This document shows positions 236 through 46,454 of a stretch of DNA of 64,000 nt, piece by piece. Below the pieces are notes generated by a model. The model had not been told where the DNA came from and searched no databases. It saw nothing but the letters and a program-made list of their open reading frames with translations. Made by a program: the position numbers and the translations under genes. Within the stretch, counting starts at the first letter, position 1. Every line of letters starts with the position of its first letter. The stretch lies in assembly GCA_902774915.1 (NCBI GenBank), contig CACYKH010000002.1:124001-188000 (forward strand). The letters are read 5' to 3'. Origin of the DNA: an uncultured Lachnospiraceae bacterium (lineage in GTDB: Bacteria; Bacillota; Clostridia; Lachnospirales; Lachnospiraceae).

Positions 236-269
236 ATAATAACACGTAAAGCGCAACATAAGCGCAACA
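236..269 (-). promoter_or_regulatory. Class A tandem-repeat promoter of the left-edge gene
   Basis: On the minus strand two 11-bp units, TGTTGCGCTTA and TGTTGCGCTTT, stand directly in tandem (248-269). They are followed by exactly 6 bp and a -10-like TATTAT (236-241). No TTGACA-like -35 lies 17 bp upstream of the -10. The same layout recurs at six other promoters in this window. It fits an activator such as a SARP-type regulator that binds 11-bp-spaced repeats; binding is inferred. Confidence 0.8.
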
Positions 270-317
270 CTTTTTTTATTTTTTAAACAATAAAAAAAAT
301 TTTAAACGCAAGATTGT

Positions 318-355
318 AAAAAAAATAAGCCAATGGTAACTCGTACCATTGACTT
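318..355 (-). terminator. Intrinsic terminator of the 348-aa lipoprotein gene
   Basis: A 12-bp stem (arms 327-338 and 344-355, one mismatch, 5-base loop) is followed on the minus strand by a run of eight T (318-325). It lies 41 bp past the stop codon of the lipoprotein gene. Confidence 0.85.
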
Positions 356-395
356 ATCCTTTATATAATATACCTCTCTCCAAGCAGAAATAGGA

Positions 396-1442
396 TTATT
401 CTGTCTCGCTCTTCATATCCATTGCCACGCTCTCATCAAGCGCCTTAGCAAAGTGTGATTTACCATCCTGATCTACAATGATACCTGTTGTATCAATATT
501 TCCATTCTCATCCTCATCAAAATGATAGCCGTAAGTCTTACCCTCTACAGTAATCTTAATATACTCTGTACCATCATCCAGCTTTGCATCCTCTGTAGTA
601 TACTCACCATAATAGATGTTTTCGCCTTCCTGAATGATTACAATAGGAATACCTGCTGACTTGAAAAGTGCAATATTTGCATCACATTCTTCATCTGATG
701 CATAAAGACCACCCATATAAACTACATCATCATCTGCAGGATCACTTACACCAAGGTTAAGATCTACAGCATCCCAACCATAATCCTGATACTTTGTAGC
801 TGGCACACTATGAGATGTTACATACTCAACAAGGAACTCTTCTCTCTTCTCTGTTCTAAGTTCATCATTGCTAAAAATCTCTGTGAATGCATCATAGTTA
901 TCACCAAAGATTTCCTTTGCACTCTCATCAAAATCCGAGCCATCCGCTACAACATCAAAACTCTCTACAACATATCCCTTACCAGCATCTGTTTCCTTAA
1001 CGTGCATGCATCCTGGATATGAACCACCAGCCTGACACTCAAGAGTATTGCCTTCAAGTGTATAAGTCTCATACCAGTAGCTTCCCCAAACCTTAATGTC
1101 CTCTGGATCAGAATCATCTCTACTAACTTCAATAATTGTTGGAATTCCAACATCGCCTGTTTCGTATCCCTTTGCAAGTTCATCACAAATATAATCACAG
1201 ATTGCGGATACTACCATATCATCCCCTGTATATGTATACTCGCCATAAGCCCACTCGGCATCTGAACTAGATGCATCAGCCTCTGTGGCTTCTGTTGCCT
1301 CCTCAGTTTCTTCCTCTGTAGTTTCCGTAACGGCTTCCGTTGTTACCTCAGCCTCTGTTGTAGTTTCTTCTTTTGCTCCACATCCTGCCATAAGTGACAG
1401 ACCAAAAACCATTGTAAGTGCAACTGCAAGTTTCTTTTTCAT
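396..1442 (-). CDS. Secreted lipoprotein of unknown function
   Basis: The 348-residue product starts at the ATG complementary to 1440-1442, behind AGAGGAAAAGAAG. The longer open frame to 1541 is rejected because its extra codons cover the promoter. Residues 1-20 are a lipoprotein signal (MKKKLAVAL..., SLMAGC), so it should be diacylated at Cys and held on the outer face of the membrane. A Thr/Glu-rich linker of about 40 residues follows, then a globular region with no motif I recognise. It is monocistronic, with its own class A promoter and its own terminator, so it is co-regulated with the T4SS genes. It could be a surface or substrate-binding accessory of the machine; this is inference. Confidence 0.85.
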   Translation of the reverse strand: MKKKLAVALTMVFGLSLMAGCGAKEETTTEAEVTTEAVTETTEEETEEATEATEADASSSDAEWAYGEYTYTGDDMVVSAICDYICDELAKGYETGDVGIPTIIEVSRDDSDPEDIKVWGSYWYETYTLEGNTLECQAGGSYPGCMHVKETDAGKGYVVESFDVVADGSDFDESAKEIFGDNYDAFTEIFSNDELRTEKREEFLVEYVTSHSVPATKYQDYGWDAVDLNLGVSDPADDDVVYMGGLYASDEECDANIALFKSAGIPIVIIQEGENIYYGEYTTEDAKLDDGTEYIKITVEGKTYGYHFDEDENGNIDTTGIIVDQDGKSHFAKALDESVAMDMKSETE

Positions 1443-1493
1443 TCTTCTTTTCCTCTTTTCGCTTTTTCTTATTACTTCTTTACTACAAATGGA

Positions 1494-1527
1494 AGTATAC
1501 ACCCAAAAGAGCAACAAAAGAGCAACA
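1494..1527 (-). promoter_or_regulatory. Class A tandem-repeat promoter of the lipoprotein gene
   Basis: Two identical units TGTTGCTCTTT (1506-1527, minus strand), then 6 bp (TGGGTG), then a -10 TATACT (1494-1499). The distal repeat abuts the terminator of the preceding operon. The unit differs from the commonest one by a single base (GCTC for GCGC). Confidence 0.85.
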
Positions 1528-1554: not shown

Positions 1555-1559
1555 TTTTT

Positions 1560-4500
1560 TTAAAGATGATGTTCCCTAGCGTTCTCTATTTCTGCACGTC
1601 TCGCACGCTTCGTGTTATTTTTCATAGTACGATTACGTTTTTGGACATTTGAAACGAGGTTCTCTTTATAATCCCCGACTTTATCAGCCTTCTTCTGCTT
1701 TTCAGAACGTTCATCAACATGACGAAGGTCATTAGGGTGAAGCTGATTATATTTTAATGCGTATTGATTATATGCCCCCTCAGCATCTAATCTCTTATGA
1801 TTAGGACTCTCTAATGCCGTTTTTTCATTCTGCATTACTTCTCTAAATACAGGATCCTTCTTCATCATATCTTCAACATCTTTTGCTGTTATTTGATTAA
1901 CTCCGGTATTTCTGATTCGAGCAACAAAATCTACGTGCTTTTCGTCCTCTTCCATCTTATAATAACGGTCCTCAGCCTGCATTCCATAAATAATTACTCT
2001 GCCCATATTAAGCAAATAATCTTTCTTGCTTGAACGTCGGTTTGTCATTATATTATTAGCAGCTTGCACCTTTTGTGCTAAACGTCTTCGAGCCGCTTCC
2101 TTATCTGCATTCACGCCAGAATTTGCATAGTTAAATCTTTTTCCATTGTGCTTATAGGTCTCAAGATCGTCTAACATACTCACAAAGAAATTAAGCTTAT
2201 CCAGTAAATTGATTGCCATTTTAATACGAGGCTGCTCTCTTACCTGTCTGCCACCATCTTCACGTCTATTACCTTCATCATCAAATTGTTTTTGTTTACG
2301 TGCAAGATACTTCTTTGTCTTTTGGGTTGTATCTAAAAGCTTGTCTCTAAAATCATCCAAATTATCTGCATATGGATCTGACCCATCTACACTTTGACCC
2401 AAAACCCCAAGTTGTTCACGAGCAAAGGTCTGAAGCTCCTGCAAAGAAATTTTCATATCTTTGAACTCATTTGAACCTTTGATGACCATTTCAACACTAT
2501 TAAGATCCTTCATCATCATATCAATGTTTTCCCTGATCAGATCATTAGAAAACGGAAGTGATGGTTCATAATGTTGACTAAAGTTCAATCTATGTTCTTT
2601 AAATTCCAGCTCTGAAGGTTTTACATCACGAACTCTTGCAATCTCAAAAATATCCTTGATAGCTGGTGTACCATGTATTATAGCCTGGGTATTTCTATCT
2701 ACTTTAACAGGATTCCTAAACTGAACATAAGCATCTATGGATGGTTTAATCGCATCCAGGATATCGTCCCTCATTTCTACAGATGTAATAATTGAATTCT
2801 TCACCCTGTCAAGAGGCTCCTTCATGCTTTCATAAAGCTGACGGGCTCTTTGCTGTTGCTCTGGAGTAATAAAGTTTGCACCTCTTATAACTCTTTGAAG
2901 ATCTTCTTCCATATGATGCATCTCTACTATTAATCCAATATCTTCTACTGGCCAGCCTCGATCTAATGCTAATTGCTGAATATCAATATCCTTCATTACA
3001 AAATTAGCGAACCTGTCACCCTGCCAATTTAATCCAAAAGTAGTTCCTGACGTGCCCTCAAAAGCCTTCAACTTTGTAACATATGGATTATCTGCTGGTA
3101 CATCCTTTATTGTCTGGAAATTAGTACGTAAATTATTTAATTGTGTCTGGTATTCTTTGCGGTAATTACGAATTTCCTCGTCTGTTATATTTCCGTTATG
3201 TCTAGAGTTTCTCACCTCAGTGTATTTCGAGAAGAATTCCTGACGTTCCTTCATCTGTTTAACAAAAGGAATGCTGTCCATCATCTCCTTATAAGTCTCA
3301 TCGTCTTTTATATATGCCCCATTCTTCTGCTTAAACTGGTTATAAGGAAATGTGGTAAACATTTGATTATAACTAAGATGATATGATGGATCCATTCTTA
3401 AGATATCTTCGTAAATACCAGTATTCATATAGTGAAAATGCTCTTCAATTATTGAATAAATATCTTCATTAATATCTTTAGCTGGTCCTTCATCTTTTCT
3501 TATACACCTACTTATGGCATTTGACAGATCCTTGGCAAGCAAACGAGCTTTCACAAATTGTCTTTTTAATTCCTGATCATCCGTGGACTCCAAATAACAC
3601 CCGTTTAGAAGCCACTCATTTGTTAAACTAGGAACTTTAGGACCTTTAATCGCAGACGCAAGATTTAATTCATTATCCATTTTGTCTTTCAGTTCTTTTA
3701 GTTCCGGATAGTTTTCGGCCAAGGAAGATAAGCCACGACAATATTCTTCAATCGCTGAAATATTAAGAGACTCTGGATTTTCATTTAAATACTTGTCAAC
3801 CCTAACCTCAAAGTCGTCTTTTTGGTTTCTTGCTTTTAGCTCTTCTCTTGATATTATCTCTGATTCTTCTGAGCTAGCTTCAGATTTATTATCTTGAGGA
3901 ATCTCCTCCTGCTTTTCCTCCTTGTCTTCCTTAGGAACCTCTTGTTTTTCTTCAGGCTTGCCACTAGGTTTCACTTCAGGCTGAGGCTTTGGCTCTTCTT
4001 TTACAGGAAGTGGATCTAGCTTAATTACCTCATACTTAGGGAAAAGCTGTTCCATCTCAGAGAACTTACTTCTATTATATCCTACAAACTCATTTTCTTT
4101 TCCGGTTTTCTCGTCTTCATCTTCTTCAACATTATAATTTCGCTTTTCGTAAGCTTTATCAATAATCTTTCTATTTTCTTTATTTACAACGTTATTACTA
4201 TCAAAAACCAGCTCCTCTTGGTTTTCGGCAGAAACGAGTTCAGGTTTATCTATGTTTTCAAAATATTTAGGAACAAATTTGAAACTCGCTCCGTATCCTT
4301 CATTAGCAATCATATGCAAAATAATCATTTTTGCATATCTTTCAATTTCCTCATTAGTGAGTGCACTTGAATCTCTTACATTCCCTATACCTTCTGTGTC
4401 AATATAATGCTTTGTATACTCTATAATACTTTTATTCTTTACAGCATTATTTTCACTATCCCATTCAGGCTCATGATTACCTGTATAAATAAAATTATCT

Positions 4501-5441
4501 AATATGGAACCGCCTGTATTATGCTTACAATAAAATGCATTTAATTCCATAAACATTTTATCAAAAACCTGTTCTGCATCTCGCTTATCCTTATCATTCA
4601 AAGCATATGGGAAAGGAGTTTGTGCTCCAGACATTCTTATATGTTTCAGTTTTAATGCATCATCAAAGGATTTTTCCTTAACGCTATTTATTGCCGCCTT
4701 AAGATCATCATTGAAGATTTGTCTTTGTTCCTTGTTATACCTTTTTACATCTGCGCCTTCCTTCTTTTTTGCTTTAATAAATTTACGCCATTTCTTTTCG
4801 TCATATTCCTCAATATAATTCAGATAGTCTATTCTTTCCTGTCTTTCCTTATCATATTTATCCTTTATTTCATTGAATATTTTATCGAAGAATTCATCCT
4901 TAAGGTCCTCTACAGCTTTTTCTCTGGCCTCTTTTTTTACCTCGGTTAGTCTATTTGCCGCATCTCTTTCTGCCTTCAAAAACCTATCTGTAAAATCTCT
5001 AGCATATTCAACTTCATTAGGATCAAATTTTTTCAATTCCTTCGCTGCTTCAGGATCATCCTTCTGCTTCTGAAGTTTCTCATATTCATCTAAAAATGCT
5101 TTGCGCTGATCATATTCTATCCTCATTTTTCTAGTTTTAAGAGTGTATTCTTGTGCGTAATTCGCGGTTCTTTTCCGCACTTCATCATCTAAGGCTTTCT
5201 TATATTCAGCGTTCTTTTCCAGGGCATCTTCTGCAAGTTGATAGAAGTTTGGATCCTCCTCATCATAATTGTAGCTATGCATTTCATCCCAGTCCTTATA
5301 AATATCTTCTTCAGTATGCTTAGCCCTTTTACTATCTTTTTCCTCATTATTGATAATATTATCATCATTAATAATATTATCATTATTGATATTATTGTTC
5401 TCATCAAAATTTATTTGATCTTCTAAATTAAATTCCTTCAT
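1560..5441 (-). CDS. Giant charged coiled-coil protein, 1293 aa, candidate T4SS substrate
   Basis: There is no signal peptide or membrane segment. Order: an Asn/Asp-rich start (residues 1-35), a highly charged helical region (about 60-260), a segment with DAEQVFDKMFMELNAF (about 285-300), a Pro/Glu/Lys-rich linker (about 470-530), then a long helical region containing ALDRGWPVEDIGLIVEM near residue 827. The tail is strongly basic (NLVSNVQKRNR onwards, about residues 1260-1293). The 1266-aa neighbour shares these blocks in the same order, so the two are paralogues. It is third gene of the operon starting at 11302, with 27 bp between it and the 1266-aa gene and an AAGGAGGT site. No catalytic motif is visible. 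Co-regulation with a T4SS and the basic tail suggest a secreted substrate; a cytoplasmic scaffold is the alternative. Confidence 0.85.
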   Translation of the reverse strand: MKEFNLEDQINFDENNNINNDNIINDDNIINNEEKDSKRAKHTEEDIYKDWDEMHSYNYDEEDPNFYQLAEDALEKNAEYKKALDDEVRKRTANYAQEYTLKTRKMRIEYDQRKAFLDEYEKLQKQKDDPEAAKELKKFDPNEVEYARDFTDRFLKAERDAANRLTEVKKEAREKAVEDLKDEFFDKIFNEIKDKYDKERQERIDYLNYIEEYDEKKWRKFIKAKKKEGADVKRYNKEQRQIFNDDLKAAINSVKEKSFDDALKLKHIRMSGAQTPFPYALNDKDKRDAEQVFDKMFMELNAFYCKHNTGGSILDNFIYTGNHEPEWDSENNAVKNKSIIEYTKHYIDTEGIGNVRDSSALTNEEIERYAKMIILHMIANEGYGASFKFVPKYFENIDKPELVSAENQEELVFDSNNVVNKENRKIIDKAYEKRNYNVEEDEDEKTGKENEFVGYNRSKFSEMEQLFPKYEVIKLDPLPVKEEPKPQPEVKPSGKPEEKQEVPKEDKEEKQEEIPQDNKSEASSEESEIISREELKARNQKDDFEVRVDKYLNENPESLNISAIEEYCRGLSSLAENYPELKELKDKMDNELNLASAIKGPKVPSLTNEWLLNGCYLESTDDQELKRQFVKARLLAKDLSNAISRCIRKDEGPAKDINEDIYSIIEEHFHYMNTGIYEDILRMDPSYHLSYNQMFTTFPYNQFKQKNGAYIKDDETYKEMMDSIPFVKQMKERQEFFSKYTEVRNSRHNGNITDEEIRNYRKEYQTQLNNLRTNFQTIKDVPADNPYVTKLKAFEGTSGTTFGLNWQGDRFANFVMKDIDIQQLALDRGWPVEDIGLIVEMHHMEEDLQRVIRGANFITPEQQQRARQLYESMKEPLDRVKNSIITSVEMRDDILDAIKPSIDAYVQFRNPVKVDRNTQAIIHGTPAIKDIFEIARVRDVKPSELEFKEHRLNFSQHYEPSLPFSNDLIRENIDMMMKDLNSVEMVIKGSNEFKDMKISLQELQTFAREQLGVLGQSVDGSDPYADNLDDFRDKLLDTTQKTKKYLARKQKQFDDEGNRREDGGRQVREQPRIKMAINLLDKLNFFVSMLDDLETYKHNGKRFNYANSGVNADKEAARRRLAQKVQAANNIMTNRRSSKKDYLLNMGRVIIYGMQAEDRYYKMEEDEKHVDFVARIRNTGVNQITAKDVEDMMKKDPVFREVMQNEKTALESPNHKRLDAEGAYNQYALKYNQLHPNDLRHVDERSEKQKKADKVGDYKENLVSNVQKRNRTMKNNTKRARRAEIENAREHHL

Positions 5442-5468
5442 TTTCTGACCTCCTTAGGAACAAAATTA

Positions 5469-8400
5469 TTATAACCTACGATTAAGCTTAGCTGCTTCTT
5501 CTTGTCTTGCAGCTTTCTTTTGGTTTTGATTATCCGCACGTTTCTTCTTTCTCTTATTCGAAACTAAGTTTGTCTTGTACTTACTTATTTCGCTTGAATC
5601 TTCCTTTAATTCTTTCTTTATATCTTCCTGTTTCTTATCCATCTTTTTTTCAGGTTGTTTATTTTTTGCCAACATATTTTTTTGCAAAAATGAACCATTA
5701 ACCATACCAGAATTAAGTCTTTTATAATTTTCCTCATTGAATTTTTCTTTATGCTCTTTGAGGAAATCTTTAAATATAGAATCCGCGCTAGCCATTTCAT
5801 TAATTTCTTTTTTAGTTATATTTCTTGCTCCAGTCTGTTCAATTCTATTTTTAAAATCCTCGTAACTCTCATTTTCGCGAGGCTTGTAATAATTATCATT
5901 TTTCTGAAGATTTAAAATAATAACACTTCCCATTGATTGAATGTACTCATCAGCATTTTTAGCATTTAGTAGTTTTCTATTTTCTTCACTAATCTTTTTG
6001 TTTATTCTACTAAGCGCCTCTTCCTTTGCTTTTGGAAGTTCTTTCTCTAAATACCTCGTCATAGGACTAATAGCATTCTCATATGAGTCGATCATATCAG
6101 TAAGGAACGTAAGATTTTCCAATTGGTTGATAGCCATTTTGATACGTGACTGTTCAGCCTTCTGCTTTCCATCCCTCTCACGTCTTCCTTTATCCTTTCG
6201 GAAATCTTCAGCCTTATGATTCAAATATCTCTTTGTCTTATTAGTAGTTTCAACCAAATGCTCTTTAAGCTCATTGAGGCTTCTTAGCATTTCCTCTTCT
6301 ACCGGCTTATCAGGATCAATAATCCCCATTCTTTCATCAGCGTATTTCTTAAGGTTTGTCAAAGAAATCTTCATGTCCTTAAATTCACCTGAACCCTTCC
6401 AGAGTTCTACACTATGAAGGTCGTCCAACATAACCCTGATGTTTTCTCTTATTTGTTCAAATGTAATTGTAGGCTTTTTAAATCCATTTTCTTCTTTTGT
6501 CCTATATTCGTTCTTTAACTCTATAGGCTTTACCTCTCGAAGTCTTGCCATGTTATGAATTTTCTCAATGGCTGAAGCTCCGTAAAATTTGCCTTCAAAA
6601 GGAACTTCCTGTCTAAGTTGAATGTATTCTTTAATAGGTGTATCTAAGGCATCTAAAATGTCCTCTCTCACTTCATCAGATGTAATAATTGAATTTTTTA
6701 TCTTATCAAGTGAAACCTCCATACTTTTAAGAATACTCTTTGCTTGTTCAACCTGCTCGGCATTTGCTTCTCCTTCACCTGCAGCCATACTTCGAAGATT
6801 TTTTTCCACTTCGTACATTTCAACTATAAAGCCCACATCTTCTACTGGCCAGCCACGATCAAGTGCCGAAAGCTGCATATCAGCCTTCTTCATTACTTTA
6901 TCGCCAAGTCTGTCTTGCTGCCAGTTAAGCTTGAAATTATGATTAACATTACTAGCAAAAGCTTGTAAGCTATTTATATCAGGGTCGTCAAGTTTTACAG
7001 ACCTAATCTTTTCAAAATTGTTCTTTGTATTTTCAATATTTTGAATATATGCTTCACGATACTTCGTTATATCATCATCCGTTAATTCATATTCCGCATC
7101 AATTCTAAAGTCACGATATCCAAGGAAATCATTTTTAATATGATTCAGTCTATCCTTCAATTGAGTGAAAAATGGTATTCTCTCAAGCATTTGCTTATAA
7201 CGTTCACCGTCGCTTTTATATGTTCCATTTTCCTGCTTGAAACTATTATAAGGAAATGTAGCATAGGCTGATAAAGCAGACGAATGAAATGTAGGGTCTA
7301 TTTTTAGTACATCCTCATAAGCTTCATTAGTCATTATGTCATAACAATCATGAGCCATTATTCTCAGCTCATCATTAATCTCGTCATCTATATCATTATC
7401 TTCAAGCTGGTTATGGTAATCTTTAAAAGTCTCCGCTAATTCCTCTGCCATTACAAAAGCCTTGGCAAAAGCTACTCTTACCGCCTCTACGCCGCAGAAA
7501 TTCATTCTCGTTCCACCAGGATAATTCTTGACATCTAATGCAACTCCAGCCAATTCACGCGTTGCTTCTCCAGAAGCATTAAGATGAGTTATTATCTGCT
7601 CAGAAAAAACACTATAATTACTACCCAGATTATTTATAGCCTTAATGTATGCATCCATGGCTGTAATATTTAAATCGCCTGGATTATTTCGAAGAAATTC
7701 TTCAACCTTAGCATTAATATATTCTTCTGAAAAATTAGGCATACGAATTGGAATAATATCCCCATTCTCATTTCGAATATTATTCTGTTGATTCTCATTA
7801 TTATTTACAATATTATTATCGTTGATATTATCATTGATAATAATATTTTCCTCATTATTTATATTATTCTCTTCAACCTTAATCTCCGGTTCCTCCCTCT
7901 TAGGAACAACCGTGTTAATAAGGTCCTTCTGCGCAGTATAGATAGACTGCATTTCGTCATATCTAAGGCGCTTATAATTAGATCCTTTTATTTGATTTCT
8001 ATTTTGGTATTCTTCTTTCTCCTCAGATTTCTCATTTAATATTATCTTTTCTGAGCTGATGCAATATTCCGGATTGTTATCAGCATCTTTTGATTTAAGC
8101 TTGCCATTAGTATTCTCAAAATATTTTGGAACATATTCAAATTTAATAGACTGATGACAAACTGAATATAAGAACAGAGCTTTTGCATACTGATTAAACT
8201 TTTCCGCTTCCACCTCTTTGACATCGATTCCTGATTTTTTTAGAAGCTTGTCAACCACATCATATAGACGTACATCAGGACCAAGATCATTAATATCTTT
8301 TGCGTTCAGATCAGAAAAAAGAACTGAAGCTCCCTTAAATTTAAACTTAGGAAGAATCCCCTCTTTGTTATCATATTTCCCATGAAAAGCATGCAGGTCC

Positions 8401-9269
8401 ATAAATATACGGTCAAAAACCTGCTCTGCATCACGTAATTCTCTATCTGTAAGTTCATTTATCTTAAATGAATTATCATATCTTCCATAAAATAGATACT
8501 GCTTGAAAATATCATCTAAAGGAGCCTTCTTAACCTTATCAATAGCCTCCTTTAAATTCTTGTTATAATGGTTTTTCTCATCATCAGATATACTATCGTC
8601 AATTTTAATCTTCGCGCCATTCTTTTCATTTTGAAGGAATTTTGTCCAGATCATGGAGTTCTTTTTCTCTAACTCTTCTCTGGCGGCCACATCTTCCTTT
8701 AGTTTATCCTCGTATCTTTTTGTCTCCATGGCAATCAGACGTTCATCACGATTGTTCATATAATTAATTTTGGTCTGTTGCACGACAGTCTTCACATCTT
8801 CGTTAGCCTTTTTTATATCATTAGCCACTTCTAAATCATGAATACTAATTATAGACCTTGCCTCAGACAGTTCATTTTCATTTATCTGTTTTCTGAGTTC
8901 CACTGCCGTATTATACCGAGCTTTAACATGCTCCAGCTTGTCCTTATCGTTCTCGGCTTCCTCAAGGTCCTTTTCATAATTATTTATAATGCTATCGTAA
9001 TTATTAACTTTTTCTACAAATTTCAGAGCATCTTTGTATAAATTATACTTAACCTTATTAGACTCTCGCTCTGCCTCCCTGGCTTCTAAATAAGTATTAA
9101 TAAACTTATTCTTTGCTTCTTCTACAGCATGCACAAGCCCAGGATTATCATCCGAAAGTGGTTTAGGACTAAAATGAGGTGCCGGCTTATTCTCATCAAC
9201 CTTTTGGAGAGTTTCCCAGCTTTCAAACTCCTCTTCATTAAATTTTAAAATGTCATCATATTCTCTCAT
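5469..9269 (-). CDS. Giant charged coiled-coil protein, 1266 aa, paralogue of the 1293-aa protein
   Basis: The cytoplasmic-type sequence starts MREYDDILKFNEEEF. It has helical charged segments (about 50-220), the block DAEQVFDRIFMDLHAF (about 285-300), an Asn/Ile-rich low-complexity linker (about 465-500) written in ATT/AAT-type codons, and ALDRGWPVEDVGFIVEM near residue 803. The C-terminus is Lys/Arg-rich and contains NLVSNKRKKKR, as in the downstream paralogue. The start overlaps the stop of the upstream 678-aa gene by 4 bp, which indicates translational coupling. No enzyme motif is seen. It is a candidate T4SS substrate or a structural partner of the 1293-aa protein. Confidence 0.85.
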   Translation of the reverse strand: MREYDDILKFNEEEFESWETLQKVDENKPAPHFSPKPLSDDNPGLVHAVEEAKNKFINTYLEAREAERESNKVKYNLYKDALKFVEKVNNYDSIINNYEKDLEEAENDKDKLEHVKARYNTAVELRKQINENELSEARSIISIHDLEVANDIKKANEDVKTVVQQTKINYMNNRDERLIAMETKRYEDKLKEDVAAREELEKKNSMIWTKFLQNEKNGAKIKIDDSISDDEKNHYNKNLKEAIDKVKKAPLDDIFKQYLFYGRYDNSFKINELTDRELRDAEQVFDRIFMDLHAFHGKYDNKEGILPKFKFKGASVLFSDLNAKDINDLGPDVRLYDVVDKLLKKSGIDVKEVEAEKFNQYAKALFLYSVCHQSIKFEYVPKYFENTNGKLKSKDADNNPEYCISSEKIILNEKSEEKEEYQNRNQIKGSNYKRLRYDEMQSIYTAQKDLINTVVPKREEPEIKVEENNINNEENIIINDNINDNNIVNNNENQQNNIRNENGDIIPIRMPNFSEEYINAKVEEFLRNNPGDLNITAMDAYIKAINNLGSNYSVFSEQIITHLNASGEATRELAGVALDVKNYPGGTRMNFCGVEAVRVAFAKAFVMAEELAETFKDYHNQLEDNDIDDEINDELRIMAHDCYDIMTNEAYEDVLKIDPTFHSSALSAYATFPYNSFKQENGTYKSDGERYKQMLERIPFFTQLKDRLNHIKNDFLGYRDFRIDAEYELTDDDITKYREAYIQNIENTKNNFEKIRSVKLDDPDINSLQAFASNVNHNFKLNWQQDRLGDKVMKKADMQLSALDRGWPVEDVGFIVEMYEVEKNLRSMAAGEGEANAEQVEQAKSILKSMEVSLDKIKNSIITSDEVREDILDALDTPIKEYIQLRQEVPFEGKFYGASAIEKIHNMARLREVKPIELKNEYRTKEENGFKKPTITFEQIRENIRVMLDDLHSVELWKGSGEFKDMKISLTNLKKYADERMGIIDPDKPVEEEMLRSLNELKEHLVETTNKTKRYLNHKAEDFRKDKGRRERDGKQKAEQSRIKMAINQLENLTFLTDMIDSYENAISPMTRYLEKELPKAKEEALSRINKKISEENRKLLNAKNADEYIQSMGSVIILNLQKNDNYYKPRENESYEDFKNRIEQTGARNITKKEINEMASADSIFKDFLKEHKEKFNEENYKRLNSGMVNGSFLQKNMLAKNKQPEKKMDKKQEDIKKELKEDSSEISKYKTNLVSNKRKKKRADNQNQKKAARQEEAAKLNRRL

Positions 9270-11355: not shown

Positions 11356-11389
11356 AGGATAGCACATAAAGCGCAACATAAGCGCAACA
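11356..11389 (-). promoter_or_regulatory. Class A tandem-repeat promoter of the giant-protein operon
   Basis: Units TGTTGCGCTTA and TGTTGCGCTTT in tandem (11368-11389, minus), 6 bp (ATGTGC), then TATCCT (11356-11361) at the conserved -10 position. An alternative -10, TAGTAT, overlaps a few bases downstream. It lies in the 254-bp gap shared with the divergent acetyltransferase gene. Confidence 0.8.
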
Positions 11390-11551: not shown

Positions 11552-11556
11552 ATGAT

Positions 11557-15031: not shown

Positions 15032-15136
15032 AAAAACCTCCAAATTAAAAGCAACAAAATCTATAACCAAAAGTATAAATAAATATTACAAACAAATATT
15101 ATAACATATTATTTGTAATAGGTATATTTTAAAGTA

Positions 15137-21924: not shown

Positions 21925-21958
21925 ATTGTACCGCATAAAGCGCAACAAAAGCGTAACA
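21925..21958 (-). promoter_or_regulatory. Class A tandem-repeat promoter of the HD-GYP/coiled-coil operon
   Basis: Units TGTTACGCTTT and TGTTGCGCTTT in tandem (21937-21958, minus), 6 bp (ATGCGG), then -10 TACAAT (21925-21930). It lies 46 bp before the start codon of the 568-aa gene. The distal unit carries one A for G change. Confidence 0.85.
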
Positions 21959-23754: not shown

Positions 23755-23792
23755 AGGAAACCTCCAAGCATAAAAAACAAGTATATTTAAGC

Positions 23793-23849
23793 AGAAAAGT
23801 CACTGATAAAACATTTAACCCGTAACCCCATTTATGTTTTACCAGTGAC
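23793..23849 (-). terminator. Long hairpin between the RsbW-like and PP2C genes
   Basis: A 16-bp stem with one mismatch (arms 23799-23814 and 23834-23849) and a 19-base loop, followed on minus by TTTTCTGC. The T tract is short, so partial termination or an mRNA processing/stability role is as likely as full termination. Confidence 0.6.
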
Positions 23850-23862
23850 ACTTCTAAACTAT

Positions 23863-31244: not shown

Positions 31245-31278
31245 AGTATAAATTATAGAGGACAACAAAAGCGCAACA
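31245..31278 (-). promoter_or_regulatory. Class A tandem-repeat promoter of the giant surface protein operon
   Basis: Distal unit TGTTGCGCTTT (31268-31278) and a diverged proximal unit TGTTGTCCTCT (31257-31267), then 6 bp (ATAATT) and -10 TATACT (31245-31250). The TGTTG core and the spacing are kept although the second half of the proximal unit has drifted. Confidence 0.8.
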
Positions 31279-31301: not shown

Positions 31302-31604
31302 TTATTGCCTGATATTCAAAAGTCCTGCTAGTCCCGTCATTTCAAAAACTTCCATTACATTCTCATTAACATTAGTAATAGCAAGCTTTCCATCCTTTTG
31401 ATTAAGCTTTATATAAAGATTACGAATAGCACGAAGACCGGCACTGGAAACATATTCCAGTTCCTTCATATTTAGTGTGATATTTGTAAATCTATCAGCC
31501 ATCTGATCAAACAAAGCATCTGCATCTCTTGATGTTCTTGTATCAAGATCTCCTGACATAAGGAGTTCTCCATCAGTTCCTCTGTCGACTAATTTAACAT
31601 CCAT
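31302..31604 (-). CDS. STAS-domain anti-anti-sigma factor (RsbV/SpoIIAA-like)
   Basis: A single 100-residue STAS domain. The phospho-acceptor loop is present (YVSSAGLRAIRNL, about residues 50-62), with the usual Ser-Ser-Ala-Gly-Leu. Unphosphorylated STAS proteins bind an RsbW-type kinase and release its partner, and PP2C phosphatases reactivate them. The gene is last in the T4SS machine operon, 26 bp after virB4, with GGAGGATACAAA as ribosome site. Kinase (23863) and phosphatases (13253, 21979) are encoded in two other operons of the regulon. This makes the machine operon supply one leg of the switch. Confidence 0.93.
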   Translation of the reverse strand: MDVKLVDRGTDGELLMSGDLDTRTSRDADALFDQMADRFTNITLNMKELEYVSSAGLRAIRNLYIKLNQKDGKLAITNVNENVMEVFEMTGLAGLLNIRQ

Positions 31605-39207: not shown

Positions 39208-41232
39208 TCAAGCAGTTTCATCCAACTCATCATCATCGCCTGAGCCAAGAACTATTTCATTTCTCTTGTCCAGGTCATAGAATACTTCGTCAGCTCTAAA
39301 CATATGACTTCTCAACTCTTCCATATCCATACGTCCAAATTTGTAATATGGGCAAAGATATGAAGGTGTGTACTTCGTCTTGAGTGGGAAGTTACCGAAA
39401 GTAACGATAATTGAATTTCCCGTACTCTCTTTGTTGTTGAGCATCTGAAGCTCTGATGGATAAATAAGTGGTCTTACCTGTGTCTGTGATGAAATATTCA
39501 TCTCACCGGCCTTGGCACCAACATTCGTAGAAGTGGAATTTGTTCGTACTGTCATATTTCCACATAGCTTTGAGAACTCTTCGCATGTTCCGATGTCGTT
39601 AGAACCGATGAACATCTTCATACCGCAGTTAGACTTAACGATATCAGCAACCTTCTCACCGTATACGTTGTTAAGCTGTGAGTAGGACTGAACCACCATG
39701 TTGAACCAGATCTTTCTGGAACGACCTACAGTGATCATCTTATCGAACTTCTCTATCTTTGGCATGTTACCAAACTCATCAAGGATGAAATAAACATTTC
39801 TTGGAAGAGAGAGGTCCTCTCTTGCAGAAGCAACCTTAATGAGGGCTTTATACATACAGAGAATGAATACTGCGGCAAGTCCATGCCTTGTATCCTTCTC
39901 ATCAGGTATCTTCATAAAGAGTGCAGTTGGTTCTTCAGCGAACCTTTCAGCCTGCACATCTGTTGCTGATGTAAGACCGCAAAGTCCACGGTCGTTAAAC
40001 ATATTCAGCTTATCAAATGTAATTGACATATATGAGGAAAGAGTTGTATCTGCAGCAGACATAACCTGACGTGACAGTGTATATGCCTGTGACAGCTTGC
40101 TTCTTCCTTCGAAATATTCCTTAAGAGTTGCGAACTCATCTTCGGAATTAGTAAGTGCTTTGTTTATATTAAAGAAGTTGAACTTATCCTTTGTCATGTT
40201 AAGGCGTTCATCTTCTGAATCTTCGAGCATTGCTAGACATGTAGACATGATGATTGAACGTGCACCCTTTTCCCAAACAGGATCCTTCTCATTCTCGATA
40301 GGACAGATAACGGAAATAAGGTCGTTCAGATCCTCGTACATCTCATCGTAAAACTGCTGGCGGGTTACGGAAACATCATCCTGACAATGACTAAGATCGG
40401 CATAAGCCTTTCCACGCCACTCAGCCCATGGCTTGCCAGGCTCTCCTTCGCCATCCATTCTCTTAAGGTCAGGATATTTGGACATATCATCCTTGTGGAA
40501 CTTAATTCCCTTTCCTGCCTCAACATATTGCTGATACATATCCCAGATGCCATCCAGTGGATTCCAACGGGATGATGAGTAAGTATCACGGAGATCAAGG
40601 AGCAGAACCTTGTATCCTCTTGATACCAGGTACTGACTATGGAGATCAAAAAGCTCTCCCTTAGGGTCAGTCATGATCATTGAGCTTCCTGCTGCTGTAG
40701 ATGCGAGGAGCTGGATCATAGGATTGATAAATGTTGTGGTCTTACCAGAACCGGTAGCACCGATGATAAGCGAATGCGCTCCCGGCAAAAAGTTGACCTG
40801 TAAATGCTTTTTCTTATCGAGGACGGCTCTTACTGGAATACCATCCTTCTTGACCTTGTTCAAATCACTATATAGGTGATGAGGAAAGTATTTATCTCTT
40901 TCCTGCTCTGTAAGGAAACGGCTGTTTTCAAGAGAACCCTGAACAACATCAGGCTTACCCTTCTTACTTCCAAGCATGCTTCCACTCTTCTCCATCATGA
41001 GAGACTCCAGGTTGCTACCTGAAAGAAGCCATATAAGGCCAATTGCAAGAGCTGCAAGACCTCCATAAGCCCAAGTCCTCCACTCCAGAAGCAGATGTGG
41101 TTCCAGTTTATAACCCTGACCATTAAGAGAACCCGTAAGCATTGGAGTAAAGGATCTTACTGCAAAGCCCACTATTCCCGCAAGGATTATAAATATCATG
41201 ATATTCAGAAGTATTTTATGTCCTGTTTTCAT
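39208..41232 (-). CDS. VirD4/TraG-type T4SS coupling ATPase
   Basis: I choose the ATG at 41232 (674 aa), 6 bases after GGGAG; the ATG two codons upstream would touch the ribosome site. Two N-terminal membrane helices (about 8-30 and 50-70) precede a TraG/VirD4 ATPase: Walker A IIGATGSGKTTTFINP near 160 and Walker B YFILDEFGNMPKIEKF near 481, with WFNMVVQSYSQL after it. The C-terminus is acidic. Coupling proteins recognise substrates, often by basic C-terminal signals, and hand them to the VirB4/VirB6 channel. The presence of this gene means the machine can select exported cargo. No relaxase is found nearby, so the cargo may be protein. Confidence 0.95.
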   Translation of the reverse strand: MKTGHKILLNIMIFIILAGIVGFAVRSFTPMLTGSLNGQGYKLEPHLLLEWRTWAYGGLAALAIGLIWLLSGSNLESLMMEKSGSMLGSKKGKPDVVQGSLENSRFLTEQERDKYFPHHLYSDLNKVKKDGIPVRAVLDKKKHLQVNFLPGAHSLIIGATGSGKTTTFINPMIQLLASTAAGSSMIMTDPKGELFDLHSQYLVSRGYKVLLLDLRDTYSSSRWNPLDGIWDMYQQYVEAGKGIKFHKDDMSKYPDLKRMDGEGEPGKPWAEWRGKAYADLSHCQDDVSVTRQQFYDEMYEDLNDLISVICPIENEKDPVWEKGARSIIMSTCLAMLEDSEDERLNMTKDKFNFFNINKALTNSEDEFATLKEYFEGRSKLSQAYTLSRQVMSAADTTLSSYMSITFDKLNMFNDRGLCGLTSATDVQAERFAEEPTALFMKIPDEKDTRHGLAAVFILCMYKALIKVASAREDLSLPRNVYFILDEFGNMPKIEKFDKMITVGRSRKIWFNMVVQSYSQLNNVYGEKVADIVKSNCGMKMFIGSNDIGTCEEFSKLCGNMTVRTNSTSTNVGAKAGEMNISSQTQVRPLIYPSELQMLNNKESTGNSIIVTFGNFPLKTKYTPSYLCPYYKFGRMDMEELRSHMFRADEVFYDLDKRNEIVLGSGDDDELDETA

Positions 41233-41315
41233 AGACATCTCCCATATCGATTCAAAAAGCGCGTAAAACTACGCCGAAAAAGATACAAATAAAGCTTCTC
41301 TTTATAAACACAATT

Positions 41316-41374: not shown

Positions 41375-41812
41375 TTAGTTTCCTGATGAAACTGTTGATG
41401 TTGAGTTTGTCTCTCCGATTGAATCGTACATCCAATCTGTAAGAGGTCCGATAGAAAGCTTAAGTGCTACTACAAGGATGAAAATAAGCAGATAACCAAT
41501 AATGGCTGTCTTAAGTGCCTGCTTTCTCTTCTCCTTCTCCTGTGGCTCCTCAGCAGTTGCGTACTTAACACCTAAGAATACGCAGAAGATTGCTCCACCT
41601 GCACTAACAATTGCAAGAATTGGTGTTAACAGACGTGTAAGAAGATCTACGATTGGCGTAGCAACGCTATCAAGATCTGCAGCAAATGCTGTTCCTGTAT
41701 AGGAAAGTATTGTCACAAGAGATACAAGTGCAACTGCAGCGATTCTGCTAAACATCAGCACCTTTTTACTAGATGCCATAGCCTTAGCTTTAATTAATAA
41801 TTCTTTCTTCAT
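41375..41812 (-). CDS. VirB2-like T4SS pilin / small two-helix membrane subunit
   Basis: The start is the ATG 9 bases after AGGAGG (145 aa); the longer frame to 41857 is rejected. A long signal-like N-terminus (about 18-46, ending GTAFAAD) is followed by a hydrophobic helix (about 58-84), a short charged loop (EEPQEKEKRKQ), a second helix (about 98-120) and a Ser/Thr/Asn-rich tail. This is the layout of VirB2/TrbC-type pilins and of the PilN/T4SS 'TrbC' subunits of Gram-positive systems. It is first gene of the machine operon, 72 bp after the -10 of the class A promoter. A stem-loop after it probably favours high expression. Confidence 0.88.
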   Translation of the reverse strand: MKKELLIKAKAMASSKKVLMFSRIAAVALVSLVTILSYTGTAFAADLDSVATPIVDLLTRLLTPILAIVSAGGAIFCVFLGVKYATAEEPQEKEKRKQALKTAIIGYLLIFILVVALKLSIGPLTDWMYDSIGETNSTSTVSSGN

Positions 41813-41883
41813 TTCTCCCATCCTCCTTGGATAATCTAAGTGGTTTTTTGCTCTCAAAGCTATTTTTTGTATCTTATGACTCG

Positions 41884-41917
41884 ATTATATCAGCATAAGC
41901 GCAACAAAAGAGCAACA
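41884..41917 (-). promoter_or_regulatory. Class A tandem-repeat promoter of the T4SS machine operon
   Basis: Units TGTTGCTCTTT and TGTTGCGCTTA in tandem (41896-41917, minus), 6 bp (TGCTGA), then a consensus -10 TATAAT (41884-41889). This is the best -10 among the class A promoters and drives pilin, coupling protein, channel, VirB4 and STAS genes. Confidence 0.88.
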
Positions 41918-41949: not shown

Positions 41950-43158
41950 TTAGTGATTTTTGGCTAAATCTAGCGGAATTTTGATGATACTTTCTGTACC
42001 ATCCGGAGTTTTATTTAAAGTATATTCTCCGTTACAAAGAATTTTTAATCGCGTTTTCACATTTTTGGTACCAACGCTCTTATGTTTTTTCTGAGTAGAG
42101 AGTTCTGTTTTCTTCCCTCTGCCGTCATCCACAACCTTTATTATAACATATCCGCCCTCTTCCTGTGTGATAATTTTAATCTCATCACCCTCTGAACTCA
42201 TACCAATTCCGTAGTAGATTGCATTTTCCACAAGCGGCTGGACTGTAAGGGCCGGAATATTAAAATCAGTGGTCTCAAATTCCTTTTTTATAGTGAAATT
42301 TCGGGATGGAAGTATCCGGGATAATTTCACATAAGCATCCACATGTTCCATCTCCTGCAAAAACGGTATCATCTTCTCATTTGTAAGCGCTTCAAAGTTC
42401 TTCCTTAGATAGGAAGAGAAGTCATAGATTGCTGGCTTTACCGATTCAGGCTCTTCGTCACAAAGCAGCGCGATCTGCTGAAGTGAATTATAAATAAAAT
42501 GAGGATGAATCTGTTCCATAAGAAGCGAAACTTTATTTTCCGAAAGTTCAACCTGCTTATTTAGCAGATCTCGCTCCATATCCATCTGATAACCGAAGAA
42601 GATTATCAGGAGCATCACTGTTATTCCGAGCCCCATAAAGTGAAGTCTGTCATCGGCCATACCAATGAAGGATGCGATTACCGGGAACATGGTTCCCAGA
42701 AGGAAGCCTATACTGGCACCGATCTTCTTTGACGAAAACAGTAGCATTATGATAGCGACAATATACTGAAGGAGGAACGCTCCGTAAATAAAGAATTCAT
42801 CATTACCAAATATTACAAGGATTAATACCAGCACAGCAAAAAGGGTCTGCACTGTAGTCCAGAAAACACCGTCCCACTTCTGTCCCGTTTCGCGCTCAGT
42901 TTCAATAAAGTAAAGCGCAAAGAATGGAGGAAACAGGGCATAGAATACTCTGGAATAGACCAGAGTCGCACTAAGCTGGAACATAAGTCCACCCATAACC
43001 AGACAAACAGAAGCAATAAACCACCCCATACGGATGTTGTGAAGCTTCATCTGTATAGCCGTCAGCATAACCACACCTGTCAGGATCATGGAAACGAAAG
43101 TACATATCAGGTTCGCTATCGTTATGACATTGTTAAAATCTATGGTATCAAAATCCAT
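41950..43158 (-). CDS. LytS/YehU-type sensor histidine kinase
   Basis: The 402 residues have about six hydrophobic segments (about 10-200), then a His-kinase domain of the LytS family: QIHPHFIYNSLQQI with the phosphorylated His near residue 219, an N box around ENAIYYGIGM, and VVDDGRGKKTE in the ATP lid. Kinases of this family usually partner with receivers ending in YAVDAFxVHADGF-like motifs, as found in the three regulators at 47.7-49.9 kb. It is 18 bp after the 233-aa membrane protein gene, behind the class B promoter at 43940. The likely partners are the receiver at 48568 and/or the SARP-type regulator at 47728, which sit in the other class B operon. Confidence 0.92.
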   Translation of the reverse strand: MDFDTIDFNNVITIANLICTFVSMILTGVVMLTAIQMKLHNIRMGWFIASVCLVMGGLMFQLSATLVYSRVFYALFPPFFALYFIETERETGQKWDGVFWTTVQTLFAVLVLILVIFGNDEFFIYGAFLLQYIVAIIMLLFSSKKIGASIGFLLGTMFPVIASFIGMADDRLHFMGLGITVMLLIIFFGYQMDMERDLLNKQVELSENKVSLLMEQIHPHFIYNSLQQIALLCDEEPESVKPAIYDFSSYLRKNFEALTNEKMIPFLQEMEHVDAYVKLSRILPSRNFTIKKEFETTDFNIPALTVQPLVENAIYYGIGMSSEGDEIKIITQEEGGYVIIKVVDDGRGKKTELSTQKKHKSVGTKNVKTRLKILCNGEYTLNKTPDGTESIIKIPLDLAKNH

Positions 43159-43878: not shown

Positions 43879-43901
43879 AATACTTCCCTACGCAAAATAA
43901 A

Positions 43902-43957
43902 GACAGCTCTCGCTATAATATCATTCTTTCCAAATGATTATTATAACGAGAGCTGTC
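43902..43957 (-). terminator. Terminator stem that encloses the class B promoter -10
   Basis: A 56-bp imperfect palindrome with about 24 bp per arm (11 perfect outer pairs GACAGCTCTCG) and a 7-base loop. On the minus strand it is followed by TTTATTTT. It lies downstream of the 780-aa gene and can stop its transcripts. The -10 TATAAT of the next promoter (43940-43945) sits within the 5' arm, so RNA started there (around 43932) holds only the 3' arm and cannot fold the hairpin. Confidence 0.75.
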
Positions 43958-43973
43958 CAACAAATGTCCAACA
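43940..43973 (-). promoter_or_regulatory. Class B tandem-repeat promoter of the sensor kinase operon
   Basis: Units TGTTGGACATT and TGTTGGACAGC in tandem (43952-43973, minus), 6 bp (TCTCGT), then TATAAT (43940-43945). The geometry is identical to class A, but the unit reads GGACA where class A reads GCGCT, so a second regulator of the same kind probably reads it. Confidence 0.85.
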
Positions 43974-44007
43974 AAAACACAAGATATTGTGTCAAAAACT
44001 AGTTTTT

Positions 44008-46350
44008 TTAGTATTCAGGTACAATTATATCAATAGTTGAATCGTTTACCATATCCATAATATTACTAGTATTCTTCGGATTAAGTGTAACAGCTGTTGA
44101 TGTTTTTTCTAGTACAACTGTAGGTTTGTTATCATCAACGCCTTCAAGTCCATATCCTTTTTTAGAACCACTACTTGCGCCTGTAGCAAAATAGTACATT
44201 TCTAGTTCGTCATATCTGTCAACAAGCTCCAACCATTCGTCCAACTTTTCTGCCGGGATTTTAATATATTCAAATTTATTATTTGTATAGTAAAGTTTTA
44301 AATAATACTCCAAATTCCTAGGATGAACTGAAGCTTCATATTTGGTGTTTTGATAACCACTTCCAAATAATTTCGTATTAACCGCTTCAACATGATATAT
44401 ATTACGCGTAGCAGCTAAGATATCCACTGATCTACTAGAATCGCTGGATATCCATTCCAGATTCTGCATATTACTCTTGTTAAGTGTGCATTTATCAAGG
44501 AATACCAGTTCGTCCTTACGATTAACTCCCGCATATAGAGTTGCTTTGTTACGATTTTCTATTTTACTTCCCTTATCTATGGTAGCTCGGGTTACCGCAA
44601 GTCCACCATAATTAATGAGAGTTGATCCTCCGGTAAGTTTAAGTGTCGCAGAATTGCTCCAATCCGCCTTATCTGTTAACGAATATATTCTTCCACCTTC
44701 CATAATGATAATATTGCCGCCATTACATTCAATATTACCCAATGTATTTTCCATAAACGGAGAGATACATCCACCTGATTTTACAAGGAGAGTACCTCCA
44801 TTCTTAATAACAATCTTACCATTATTTATAAGATTAGTTCCAACAGTGAGCGTACCACCGTCAATAGTGATAACCTTGTCCTTCTGAAGAATATAACCAT
44901 CAGTGAATCCTGCGTCACTTACGCCATCTCCATCATCATCTTTAGCGCTGGCAAACATTCCACCATTAAGTGCCATAAGCTTGCCATCTTTGATTGTCTG
45001 AGTTTTAAGAGCTGTCATTTCATGTGGAGTACCAACATACCACTTGAAAGTCGAAACACCTCTTTCTCTCCAGGAACCCTGGAAGGTAATCTCCCACTGA
45101 TAGCCATCCTTAGGAAGATAGGTTAAAAGAACCATATCTGTACTATTATTGGTAACACCAGAACCATAGCAGTCTAAGCAAATTTCATTATCAGTATTGT
45201 TATCAAATTTAGCAAGCCACCAGATATTATTCGCTTTACCAACAGTTTTCATATGTATATAATCATTTTTACTCACTGCACCATCGGTATCATACTTATT
45301 AAAGAACATAATAGGCTCGTAACCATGATCACCTGTCTCTTTTATAGTGGCTGAGTAAAGGAAATAATCCTTACCATTTTGTGGAGTATATTTGGAAGCC
45401 TCAGCATTTGTAAGCTGTTTTGTAGGGATGTTCATTGTAACAGCAATATTAGTACAATTAGAATTCATTTGAAAATTCTTTATCCATGGAACACCCATAG
45501 AATCACCCATTGAGAAAAACTTCTTTTTTGTAAAATAACTCTGCGGAATATCGCTGTATTTTCCTTTATCGTCCTCCTCAATGTACATGCTTTGTCCAGC
45601 ACTAAAGTAGTATGAAGGGGAATGCTGTTCATCTCCATATTCACCAATTTTTTTCTTTCCACTATCATACTTTCCGTAGTAGCCATTATATATATCGCTC
45701 TCAACATTAACACTCGTCATAGGAAAATCATCATAATAATGGTAATGTATTCTTACTGGTCCATATGCTACATGTTTCCTATCCGCATAGGTTGATATAA
45801 ATGGCATGCTTTTGTTGCTATATTTATTCATAGGTTTGAAATACTGATCTTTGTAAAGCTGTGCTGACCAATAGTTGGGCATAACATTGTTAACCCAACG
45901 ATCATACGCAGCGTTCCATCTTTGATGGAAGTCGTCACCTGCATTTGTTTTAAAATTAGTACTTCTTACACATGCAGTGCCACCATTCATAGCAGGTGTA
46001 TCTTGAGAATAGCATGGAATAAGCATAGACGCATGATACTTACTATCACTGAGGATGGATCTGGCGTTGTCTGAAGTCACCTCTTCCCACTCCCAAAATC
46101 CAATACGTGTAGTCTGAGCGTCCATAATATTGGTTTGCTTCTGCTCTTCTGTTTTTCCATTTCCCTCTGTAGTCGCTTCTGTAGTCGCCTCTCCATCTTT
46201 CAAGATTATACCTGCTGTCTGGGCATTAACTGCATAAGAGGAACTGAGTCCAAAAACTGAAGCCATCATAATAACAGCTGCAGCGAGAGCGAACCCTTTA
46301 TGCTTTTTATTTATTTTAGGAATAATACGGATTATCTTAAACTTTACCAT
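44008..46350 (-). CDS. Exported protein with beta-helix-like repeats, 780 aa
   Basis: An unusually long basic N-terminus (KFKIIRIIPKINKKHKGF) precedes the signal core (about 20-42, ending AVNAQ). A Thr/Glu linker (about 50-75) leads to a Tyr/Trp-rich globular domain (about 80-440). A calcium-binding-like loop DDDGDGVSDAG (about 470) follows, then Gly/Asn-rich short strands (GGTLTVGTNLINNGKIVIKNGG and similar, about 485-620) that look like a right-handed beta-helix. There is no wall anchor. It is monocistronic under the class A promoter at 46421, with the nested terminator downstream, and so belongs to the regulon. Surface adhesion or polysaccharide contact is a guess; no catalytic residues are clear. 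Confidence 0.85.
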   Translation of the reverse strand: MVKFKIIRIIPKINKKHKGFALAAAVIMMASVFGLSSSYAVNAQTAGIILKDGEATTEATTEGNGKTEEQKQTNIMDAQTTRIGFWEWEEVTSDNARSILSDSKYHASMLIPCYSQDTPAMNGGTACVRSTNFKTNAGDDFHQRWNAAYDRWVNNVMPNYWSAQLYKDQYFKPMNKYSNKSMPFISTYADRKHVAYGPVRIHYHYYDDFPMTSVNVESDIYNGYYGKYDSGKKKIGEYGDEQHSPSYYFSAGQSMYIEEDDKGKYSDIPQSYFTKKKFFSMGDSMGVPWIKNFQMNSNCTNIAVTMNIPTKQLTNAEASKYTPQNGKDYFLYSATIKETGDHGYEPIMFFNKYDTDGAVSKNDYIHMKTVGKANNIWWLAKFDNNTDNEICLDCYGSGVTNNSTDMVLLTYLPKDGYQWEITFQGSWRERGVSTFKWYVGTPHEMTALKTQTIKDGKLMALNGGMFASAKDDDGDGVSDAGFTDGYILQKDKVITIDGGTLTVGTNLINNGKIVIKNGGTLLVKSGGCISPFMENTLGNIECNGGNIIIMEGGRIYSLTDKADWSNSATLKLTGGSTLINYGGLAVTRATIDKGSKIENRNKATLYAGVNRKDELVFLDKCTLNKSNMQNLEWISSDSSRSVDILAATRNIYHVEAVNTKLFGSGYQNTKYEASVHPRNLEYYLKLYYTNNKFEYIKIPAEKLDEWLELVDRYDELEMYYFATGASSGSKKGYGLEGVDDNKPTVVLEKTSTAVTLNPKNTSNIMDMVNDSTIDIIVPEY

Positions 46351-46420
46351 TTTTTTCTTCCTTCTTTGTTAAGATCCTTCGCCCAAGGGCTTAGGAAGAC
46401 ATATTTTCATTATATGTCAG

Positions 46421-46454
46421 AGTTTATCACACAAAACGCAACAAAAGCGCAACA
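46421..46454 (-). promoter_or_regulatory. Class A tandem-repeat promoter of the 780-aa exported protein
   Basis: Units TGTTGCGCTTT and TGTTGCGTTTT in tandem (46433-46454, minus), 6 bp (GTGTGA), then -10 TAAACT (46421-46426). The leader holds a small GC hairpin (CCTAAGCCC region, about 46379-46396) before the ribosome site. Confidence 0.82.

Follow-up and report, generated by a model that had tools for sequence, protein, structure and literature searches.

Activators of the Streptomyces antibiotic regulatory protein (SARP) family provide the closest described parallel to the promoters considered here. According to a published account (PMC10936776), SARP sites are made of repeats with a spacing of 11 or 22 bp, and 8 bp separate the 3′ one from the -10; the afs box of AfsR occupies -40 to -19 and overlaps the -35, and the SARP domain of AfsR sits as a side-by-side dimer on two 11-bp repeats over a poor -35, where it forms a new dock for sigma region 4. 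The same account describes "sigma adaptation" by mycobacterial PafBC, an activator that is likewise placed between promoter DNA and sigma region 4. In Legionella (PMC2701608), recognisable binding sites of the response regulators PmrA and CpxR lie before many genes for Icm/Dot effectors. Here, we analysed a 64,000-nucleotide stretch (the window) from an uncultured Lachnospiraceae bacterium (GCA_902774915.1, contig CACYKH010000002.1, positions 124,001 to 188,000), in which a tandem 11-bp repeat, the class A operator, recurs before -10 elements. It is highly probable, in our judgement, that this element is the operator of a regulator of 263 amino acids (aa) encoded in the window, that activation is SARP-like and follows from a cascade acting through a second operator (class B), and that the regulon comprises a type IV secretion system (T4SS) and its candidate substrates.

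Seven tandem class A operators are present in the window, all on the minus strand and with 1-3 mismatches to TGTTGCGCTTTTGTTGCGCTTT, and exactly 6 bp downstream of each stands a -10-like hexamer (in coordinate order TATTAT, TATACT, TATCCT, TACAAT, TATACT, TATAAT and TAAACT), as the original prediction had claimed. The promoters are as follows.

236..269, minus strand: class A promoter 1 (operator 248-269, -10 TATTAT 236-241), predicted to drive the gene of a 1409-aa protein (window 1-215, extending past the window)
1494..1527, minus strand: class A promoter 2 (operator 1506-1527, -10 TATACT), predicted to drive a 348-aa putative lipoprotein (399-1442; named by eye)
11356..11389, minus strand: class A promoter 3 (operator 11368-11389, -10 TATCCT), predicted to drive three large proteins (678, 1266 and 1293 aa)
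21925..21958, minus strand: class A promoter 4 (operator 21937-21958, -10 TACAAT), predicted to drive a 568-aa protein and the genes after it
31245..31278, minus strand: class A promoter 5 (operator 31257-31278, -10 TATACT), predicted to drive a 1782-aa protein (surface-type by eye), proteins of 255 and 220 aa and, as later genes, a 160-aa RsbW-like and a SpoIIE-like protein (both named by eye)
41884..41917, minus strand: class A promoter 6 (operator 41896-41917, -10 TATAAT), predicted to drive the T4SS operon (pilin, VirD4, 345 aa, VirB6-like, VirB4)
46421..46454, minus strand: class A promoter 7 (operator 46433-46454, -10 TAAACT), predicted to drive a 780-aa protein (exported, by eye)

The tandem pattern is absent from all of 100 dinucleotide shuffles of the window. 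Lone 11-mers with at most two mismatches number 24 in the window and 16.0 ± 3.6 in the shuffles, two of which reach 24; this is close to chance, so single 11-mers were dropped and the evidence lies in the tandem.

The whole 2.61-Mb assembly (67 contigs) was then scanned, as the original prediction had proposed, although with a pattern rather than a matrix. The tandem alone, with at most three mismatches, gave 23 matches, and the tandem combined with the 6-bp spacing and TAnnnT gave 34, 27 of them outside the window; the reversed pattern gave none in either case. Among the 23 sites, which were picked without reference to a -10, TAnnnT lies 6 bp away in 22 and 5 bp away in the remaining one, whereas any other offset from 0 to 39 accounts for 0-7 of them. 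At 16-18 bp from the -10 of these sites, the best match to TTGACA comprises one of six bases or none, which bears out the earlier claim that a TTGACA-like -35 is missing. When the sites with at most two mismatches in 24 fetched stretches of the genome were compared with 9600 random positions, a same-strand open reading frame (ORF) started within 150 bp of 20 of 23 sites vs. 6.5% of random positions, and one of 23 sites lay inside an ORF vs. 83%. The bases were compared in 30 sites, for which three sites with three mismatches (C6:89155, C11:15013 and C15:39767) and one 5-bp site (C12:68481) were dropped from the 34: position 3 of each repeat is always T, and 18 of the sites have TGn before the -10. 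The original prediction regarded the element as a regulon signature of the locus, and took many matches at unrelated genes as a sign to the contrary. The shared operator holds genome-wide, but its scope is wider than the locus, and the sites outside the window are divided: 15 of the 27 precede one kind of gene, and 12 precede mixed genes or none that is clear.

Both a 263-aa and a 266-aa regulator had been named as candidates for binding to class A. These paralogues (37% identity) are encoded beside a stand-alone receiver and near two histidine kinases.

47728..48519, minus strand: 263-aa regulator (receiver, SARP-like winged helix and short C-terminal helices), proposed to bind class A
48568..48927, minus strand: 119-aa stand-alone receiver (Pfam receiver match)
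49094..49894, minus strand: 266-aa paralogous regulator, proposed to bind class B
49910..51274, minus strand: 454-aa histidine kinase (PF06580, HATPase_c)
41950..43158, minus strand: 402-aa histidine kinase (PF06580), put forward as the sensor that serves the 263-aa regulator

Both regulators were sought, and class A sites counted, in 37 genomes of the genus, where the reversed pattern gives 0-2 matches per genome. An orthologue of the 263-aa regulator (69-85% identity outside the bacterium's own genome, with a clear gap to other relatives at 41% or less) occurs in 17 of them, all of which have 6-34 class A sites, whereas 19 of the 20 genomes without it have 0-3, near background. A 266-like protein (at least 50% identity) is encoded in eight. 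In a wider scan with at most two mismatches (397 genomes of the family, drawn evenly from a larger group and including two of the genus, the own genome and G023), only two family genomes outside the genus had at least five class A sites (15 and 5). It was predicted before the search that these two would encode the 263 orthologue, and both encode one of 70% identity; among 26 other family genomes picked for this test, no 263-like protein exceeded 44%. Thus, the comparative data speak for the 263-aa protein as the likely partner of class A and against the 266-aa protein.

The operon behind promoter 6 encodes recognisable parts of a T4SS, including both ATPases, a VirB6-like protein and a pilin.

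39208..41238, minus strand: VirD4-type coupling ATPase (NCBIfam CD1115 family, above cut-off)
31631..36019, minus strand: VirB4-type ATPase (Mbov_0397-like, below the NCBIfam cut-off; Pfam TraG P-loop above cut-off)
36071..38095, minus strand: VirB6-like membrane protein (Mbov_0396 and MMCAP2_0566 models, above cut-off)
41375..41857, minus strand: T4SS pilin (PF18895)

The VirD4, VirB6-like and pilin matches resemble Gram-positive conjugation systems of the Mbov integrative and conjugative element (ICE) and CD1115 types. Unlike in those systems, the one relaxase family searched, PF03432, gave no match in the own genome, and the operators suggest that the secretion genes are regulated together with large proteins whose genes are dispersed. 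Of the 17 genus genomes with the 263-aa regulator, 15, the own genome included, encode a VirD4 orthologue (E 1e-100 or better; 79-90% identity in one piece, two pieces in one genome); none of the 20 without the regulator does.

The largest group of genes behind class A sites encodes big proteins that mostly lack hydrophobic stretches. In the window they include the following group.

1560..11302, minus strand: candidate effectors behind class A promoter 3, three large hydrophilic proteins without a Pfam match at E 0.05

Outside the window, a large hydrophilic protein (328-3686 aa) lies directly behind 15 of the 27 sites, by a count made by eye of first genes of at least 300 aa that are hydrophilic and bear no recognised metabolic or membrane name; two more sites have such a protein as the second gene, and one is followed by a 208-aa protein whose tail is similar. 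Because the rule used to chain genes crosses operons, the assignment of second and third genes is a guess. Of the first genes of at least 270 aa outside the window, 18 of 20 lack a transmembrane (TM)-like stretch (mean hydropathy above 1.8 across 19 residues). From two further genomes in the genus (20 stretches each, from 34 and 27 class A matches), 31 such first genes were compared with 113 controls: the median length is 1069 aa vs. 420 aa, a TM-like stretch occurs in 2 of 31 vs. 49%, and an MKE/MP-like start, a class defined after both sets had been viewed, occurs in 25 of 31 vs. 11 of 113. A C-terminal pattern is modestly enriched (16 of 31 vs. 26 of 113, Fisher 0.003; 9 of 20 in the own genome, 0.054), in a test that was not blind, as the pattern came from inspection of own-genome proteins by eye and the relatives' tails had been viewed before it was tested; the C-terminal net charge is +3.3 and +2.1 vs. 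+0.1 in controls. Among 96 proteins of at least 300 aa (first to third genes, three genomes), 31 form one cluster through shared stretches (E <1e-8), under single linkage, which low-complexity matches can chain. As regards domains, 49 of 57 scanned large proteins have no Pfam family above its cut-off. The matches above cut-off in 32 own-genome proteins are PI3/PI4-kinase in two, calpain protease in one and ABC1 kinase in one, and in 25 proteins from relatives ADP-ribosylglycohydrolase in one. Neither the shared modules (alignments A4 and A5, at E 0.1) nor the calpain-like protein matched the PDB, one phosphoinositide-kinase protein had three weak matches there (E 0.03-0.06; two named Fam20C), and PADLOC returned no match for six large proteins. 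One class A protein of 3686 aa is followed by a protein of 2121 aa that contains an ABC1 kinase domain, and a separate class A site belongs to each of the two (L048 2486-13543; L137 666-7028).

These proteins share their operator with the T4SS and may be read as candidate secreted effectors, although the C-terminal pattern is weak. It is, however, a serious possibility, to which we would give somewhat less than an even chance, that they are instead located at the cell surface, act inside the cell as part of the same life style, or are polyvalent proteins carried by a conjugative element. The T4SS parts match ICE-type models, and polyvalent proteins (PMC5512222) are likewise large and multidomain and occur in conjugative elements and phages; the scarcity of Pfam families and the modest C-terminal enrichment point the same way. 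On the other hand, no relaxase of the family searched was found, class A genes are spread over many contigs, TM-like stretches are few, and mosaic modules are shared. Compared with Legionella PmrA/CpxR, the regulator class, the operator and the secretion system are all different, and the effectors are candidates only.

Two operons of the window carry the class B operator, made of TGTTGGACATT repeats with the same 6-bp spacing to the -10 as class A.

49013..49057, minus strand: class B promoter of three TGTTGGACATT-type units, 6 bp before -10 TATAAT, upstream of the genes for the 119-aa receiver and the 263-aa regulator
43940..43973, minus strand: class B promoter of two units, 6 bp before -10 TATAAT, upstream of the genes of a 233-aa protein, membrane-type by eye, and of the 402-aa kinase

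Contrary to the original prediction that class A covers all large operons of the locus, these two operons, which contain regulator and kinase genes, do not carry it. Another class B copy (52664-52683, plus strand) was left out of the promoter count because no -10 lies at the right place. Class B was first noticed beside genes for 266-like proteins and then scanned in 61 genomes: it occurs in 7 of the 8 genus genomes with a 266-like protein vs. 1 of the 29 without, the latter by a three-mismatch match, and in none of the 24 non-genus genomes scanned. Hence, class B tracks the 266-aa paralogue. At 80 loci around relatives of the 266-aa protein, a search for any 11-bp tandem (9 of 11 positions equal) 6 bp from a good -10 gave 38 matches; gaps of 7-9 bp gave 36-44 (the same repeats in shifted register), a gap of 5 gave 20, and farther gaps 5-10, while periods of 12 and 10 each gave at most 5, and periods of 8 and 9, under a looser rule, 9-24. 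By our own count, 20 of the 38 contain TGTTGGACATT-type units, and other unit types are found at more distant regulators.

It could be argued that the 266-aa regulator, or either paralogue without distinction, binds class A, given their relatedness, the TGTTG shared by class A and class B units, and a few hybrid-looking sites in the own genome, such as TGTTGCTCATT TGTTGCACATT at C12:51282, which both patterns match. This is highly unlikely: 11 genomes with the 263-aa regulator and without a 266-like protein keep 6-28 class A sites, whereas the two genus genomes with only a 266-like protein have 1 and 2, and it is class B that tracks the 266-aa protein. From the class B sites before the 119/263 and 233/402 genes, together with this tracking, a two-tier cascade is likely, in which the 454-aa kinase and the 266-aa regulator would act upon the 402-aa kinase and the 263-aa regulator, and these in turn upon class A.

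With respect to the protein itself, Pfam recognises a receiver in the 263-aa (PF00072, residues 5-111), 266-aa and 119-aa proteins, and Trans_reg_C in the 266-aa protein only. An AlphaFold model of the C-terminal domain of the 263-aa regulator has a mean pLDDT of 93.9, and its six best PDB structural matches are AfsR and EmbR chains, ahead of PhoB-type domains. The domain was used alone because full-length Foldseek is uninformative: a receiver followed by a winged helix resembles OmpR/PhoB regulators in general. A sequence profile finds EmbR at E 2.8e-4 over 113 positions and AfsR at E 0.02, with two ordinary response regulators (E 0.0016 and 0.0054) ranked between them. Thus, the OmpR-type winged helix is of the SARP kind, but the full seven-helix BTA(D) domain is lacking and the DNA-binding domain is not N-terminal and receiver-free; because of the receiver and the mere three helices after the winged helix, we file the protein as one that would work like a SARP and not as a SARP family member. 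A third paralogue of 34% identity is encoded at C6:194600 (L053, C6:189000-198500).

In unit length, phase and distance, the operator agrees with the SARP type. Class A consists of direct repeats 11 bp apart that lie over the -35, and its 3′ core is 8 bp from the -10, the very SARP distance that the original prediction had named and that the published account gives (PMC10936776). As in the afs box described there, two 11-bp direct repeats span -40 to -19 with the upstream repeat over a poor -35, and the T residues contacted by AfsR at -38 and -27 correspond to the T that is invariant in class A, if the -10 is set at -12 to -7. AfsR has a fold related to that modelled for the C-terminal domain here, yet it lacks the receiver arrangement of the 263-aa regulator, in which an N-terminal receiver precedes a winged helix with only three helices after it; furthermore, AfsR belongs to the SARP family of Streptomyces, whereas class A is found in Lachnospiraceae, with a good -10 and at a secretion locus rather than an antibiotic cluster. 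PafBC, in turn, is a WYL-domain protein with a different site. It is reasonable to assume that two protomers of the 263-aa regulator would bind next to each other, one on each of the repeats that stand in for the -35, and would recruit housekeeping RNA polymerase by SARP-like sigma adaptation. We infer that this activation would be governed by phosphorylation, with the neighbouring 402-aa kinase as its probable source, that the 266-aa regulator on class B would switch on the operons for the 263-aa regulator and the 402-aa kinase, and that the class A regulon would consist of the T4SS locus and dispersed genes, the big proteins of which would be T4SS substrates. That the repeats are instead the -35-like element of an alternative sigma factor, which would equally give a fixed spacing and no TTGACA, is most improbable, as a 22-bp box of two equal 11-bp repeats has SARP geometry, operator type goes with regulator type, and the -10 is housekeeping-like, often with TGn.

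Several observations weigh against this interpretation. Twelve of the 27 outside sites have no large hydrophilic protein directly behind them; acetyltransferase, membrane, phosphatase-module or metabolic-looking genes (glgC-like and GH3-like, named by eye), or no clear gene, as at C11:15046, are found instead. One genus genome, G012 (70% complete), has eight class A sites and no detected 263 orthologue; two others (G005 and G031) have the 263-aa regulator but no VirD4 orthologue, and G046, outside the genus, has a VirD4 of 61% identity without a 263-like regulator. All co-occurrence counts were made without a species tree, so that shared descent is uncorrected and the figures are inflated. On the protein side, the winged helix is followed by three helices only, Pfam BTAD matches 0 of 44 proteins at E 0.01, and full-length Foldseek puts ordinary OmpR/PhoB regulators first. 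Finally, the pairing of the 402-aa kinase with the 263-aa regulator is drawn from gene neighbourhood only.

If the interpretation holds, SARP promoter logic, known from actinomycete antibiotic clusters, would extend to two-component regulators of gut Clostridia, in which two regulator paralogues appear to have diverged in operator. The class A operator would place dozens of giant proteins, whose function is unknown, within a single programme and offers a ready tag, since a simple scan lists its genes in these bacteria. In our literature search, which took in few subscription papers, we found no published account of the class A operator or of T4SS effectors in Lachnospiraceae. The closest named relatives of the locus regulator are Lachnospiraceae (68% in strain LC2019), and a rumen-type habitat is suggested by the word "rumen" in the titles of many related records. 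Within this context, it is a tentative and rather doubtful idea that rumen-type Lachnospiraceae direct a protein-delivering T4SS with giant mosaic effectors, some of them of phosphoinositide-kinase or calpain type, against eukaryotic cells (rumen ciliates or fungi), and switch it on through a cascade in which SARP-type activators, linked to receivers, have paired operators. Should the large proteins truly be secreted, one could test directly whether neighbours of commensal gut Firmicutes receive proteins injected by them.

Some further features of the two operators deserve mention. Hairpins with GTCAGT...ACTGAC arms, seen by eye, adjoin class B sites (window 49060-49090 and 52697-52769), and a comparable GTCAATGGGGTCAGG stretch is found after the class A site at C6:89155; they look like a small palindromic repeat family. 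In an Acholeplasmatales locus (L111 10513 and 14924), TGTCACATGTT tandem repeats stand 6 bp before a -10 near a regulator relative of 40% identity, and the tandem-repeat architecture may therefore reach beyond Clostridia. The class A sites before glgC/glgD-like genes (L015 5429-8078) and a GH3-like gene (L017 6523-8959), all named by eye, could mean that the regulon has a metabolic arm, or could be due to chance. Rfam (at the gathering cut-off) and tRNA scans of the window gave no match. Genes that are SpoIIE-, STAS- and RsbW-like by eye lie within the class A locus (window 13253-15070, 21979-24345 and 31302-31604), and a second such set lies behind the class A site at C12:51315 (L047 3536-5065 and downstream); by eye, they resemble a partner-switching module within the putative class A regulon.

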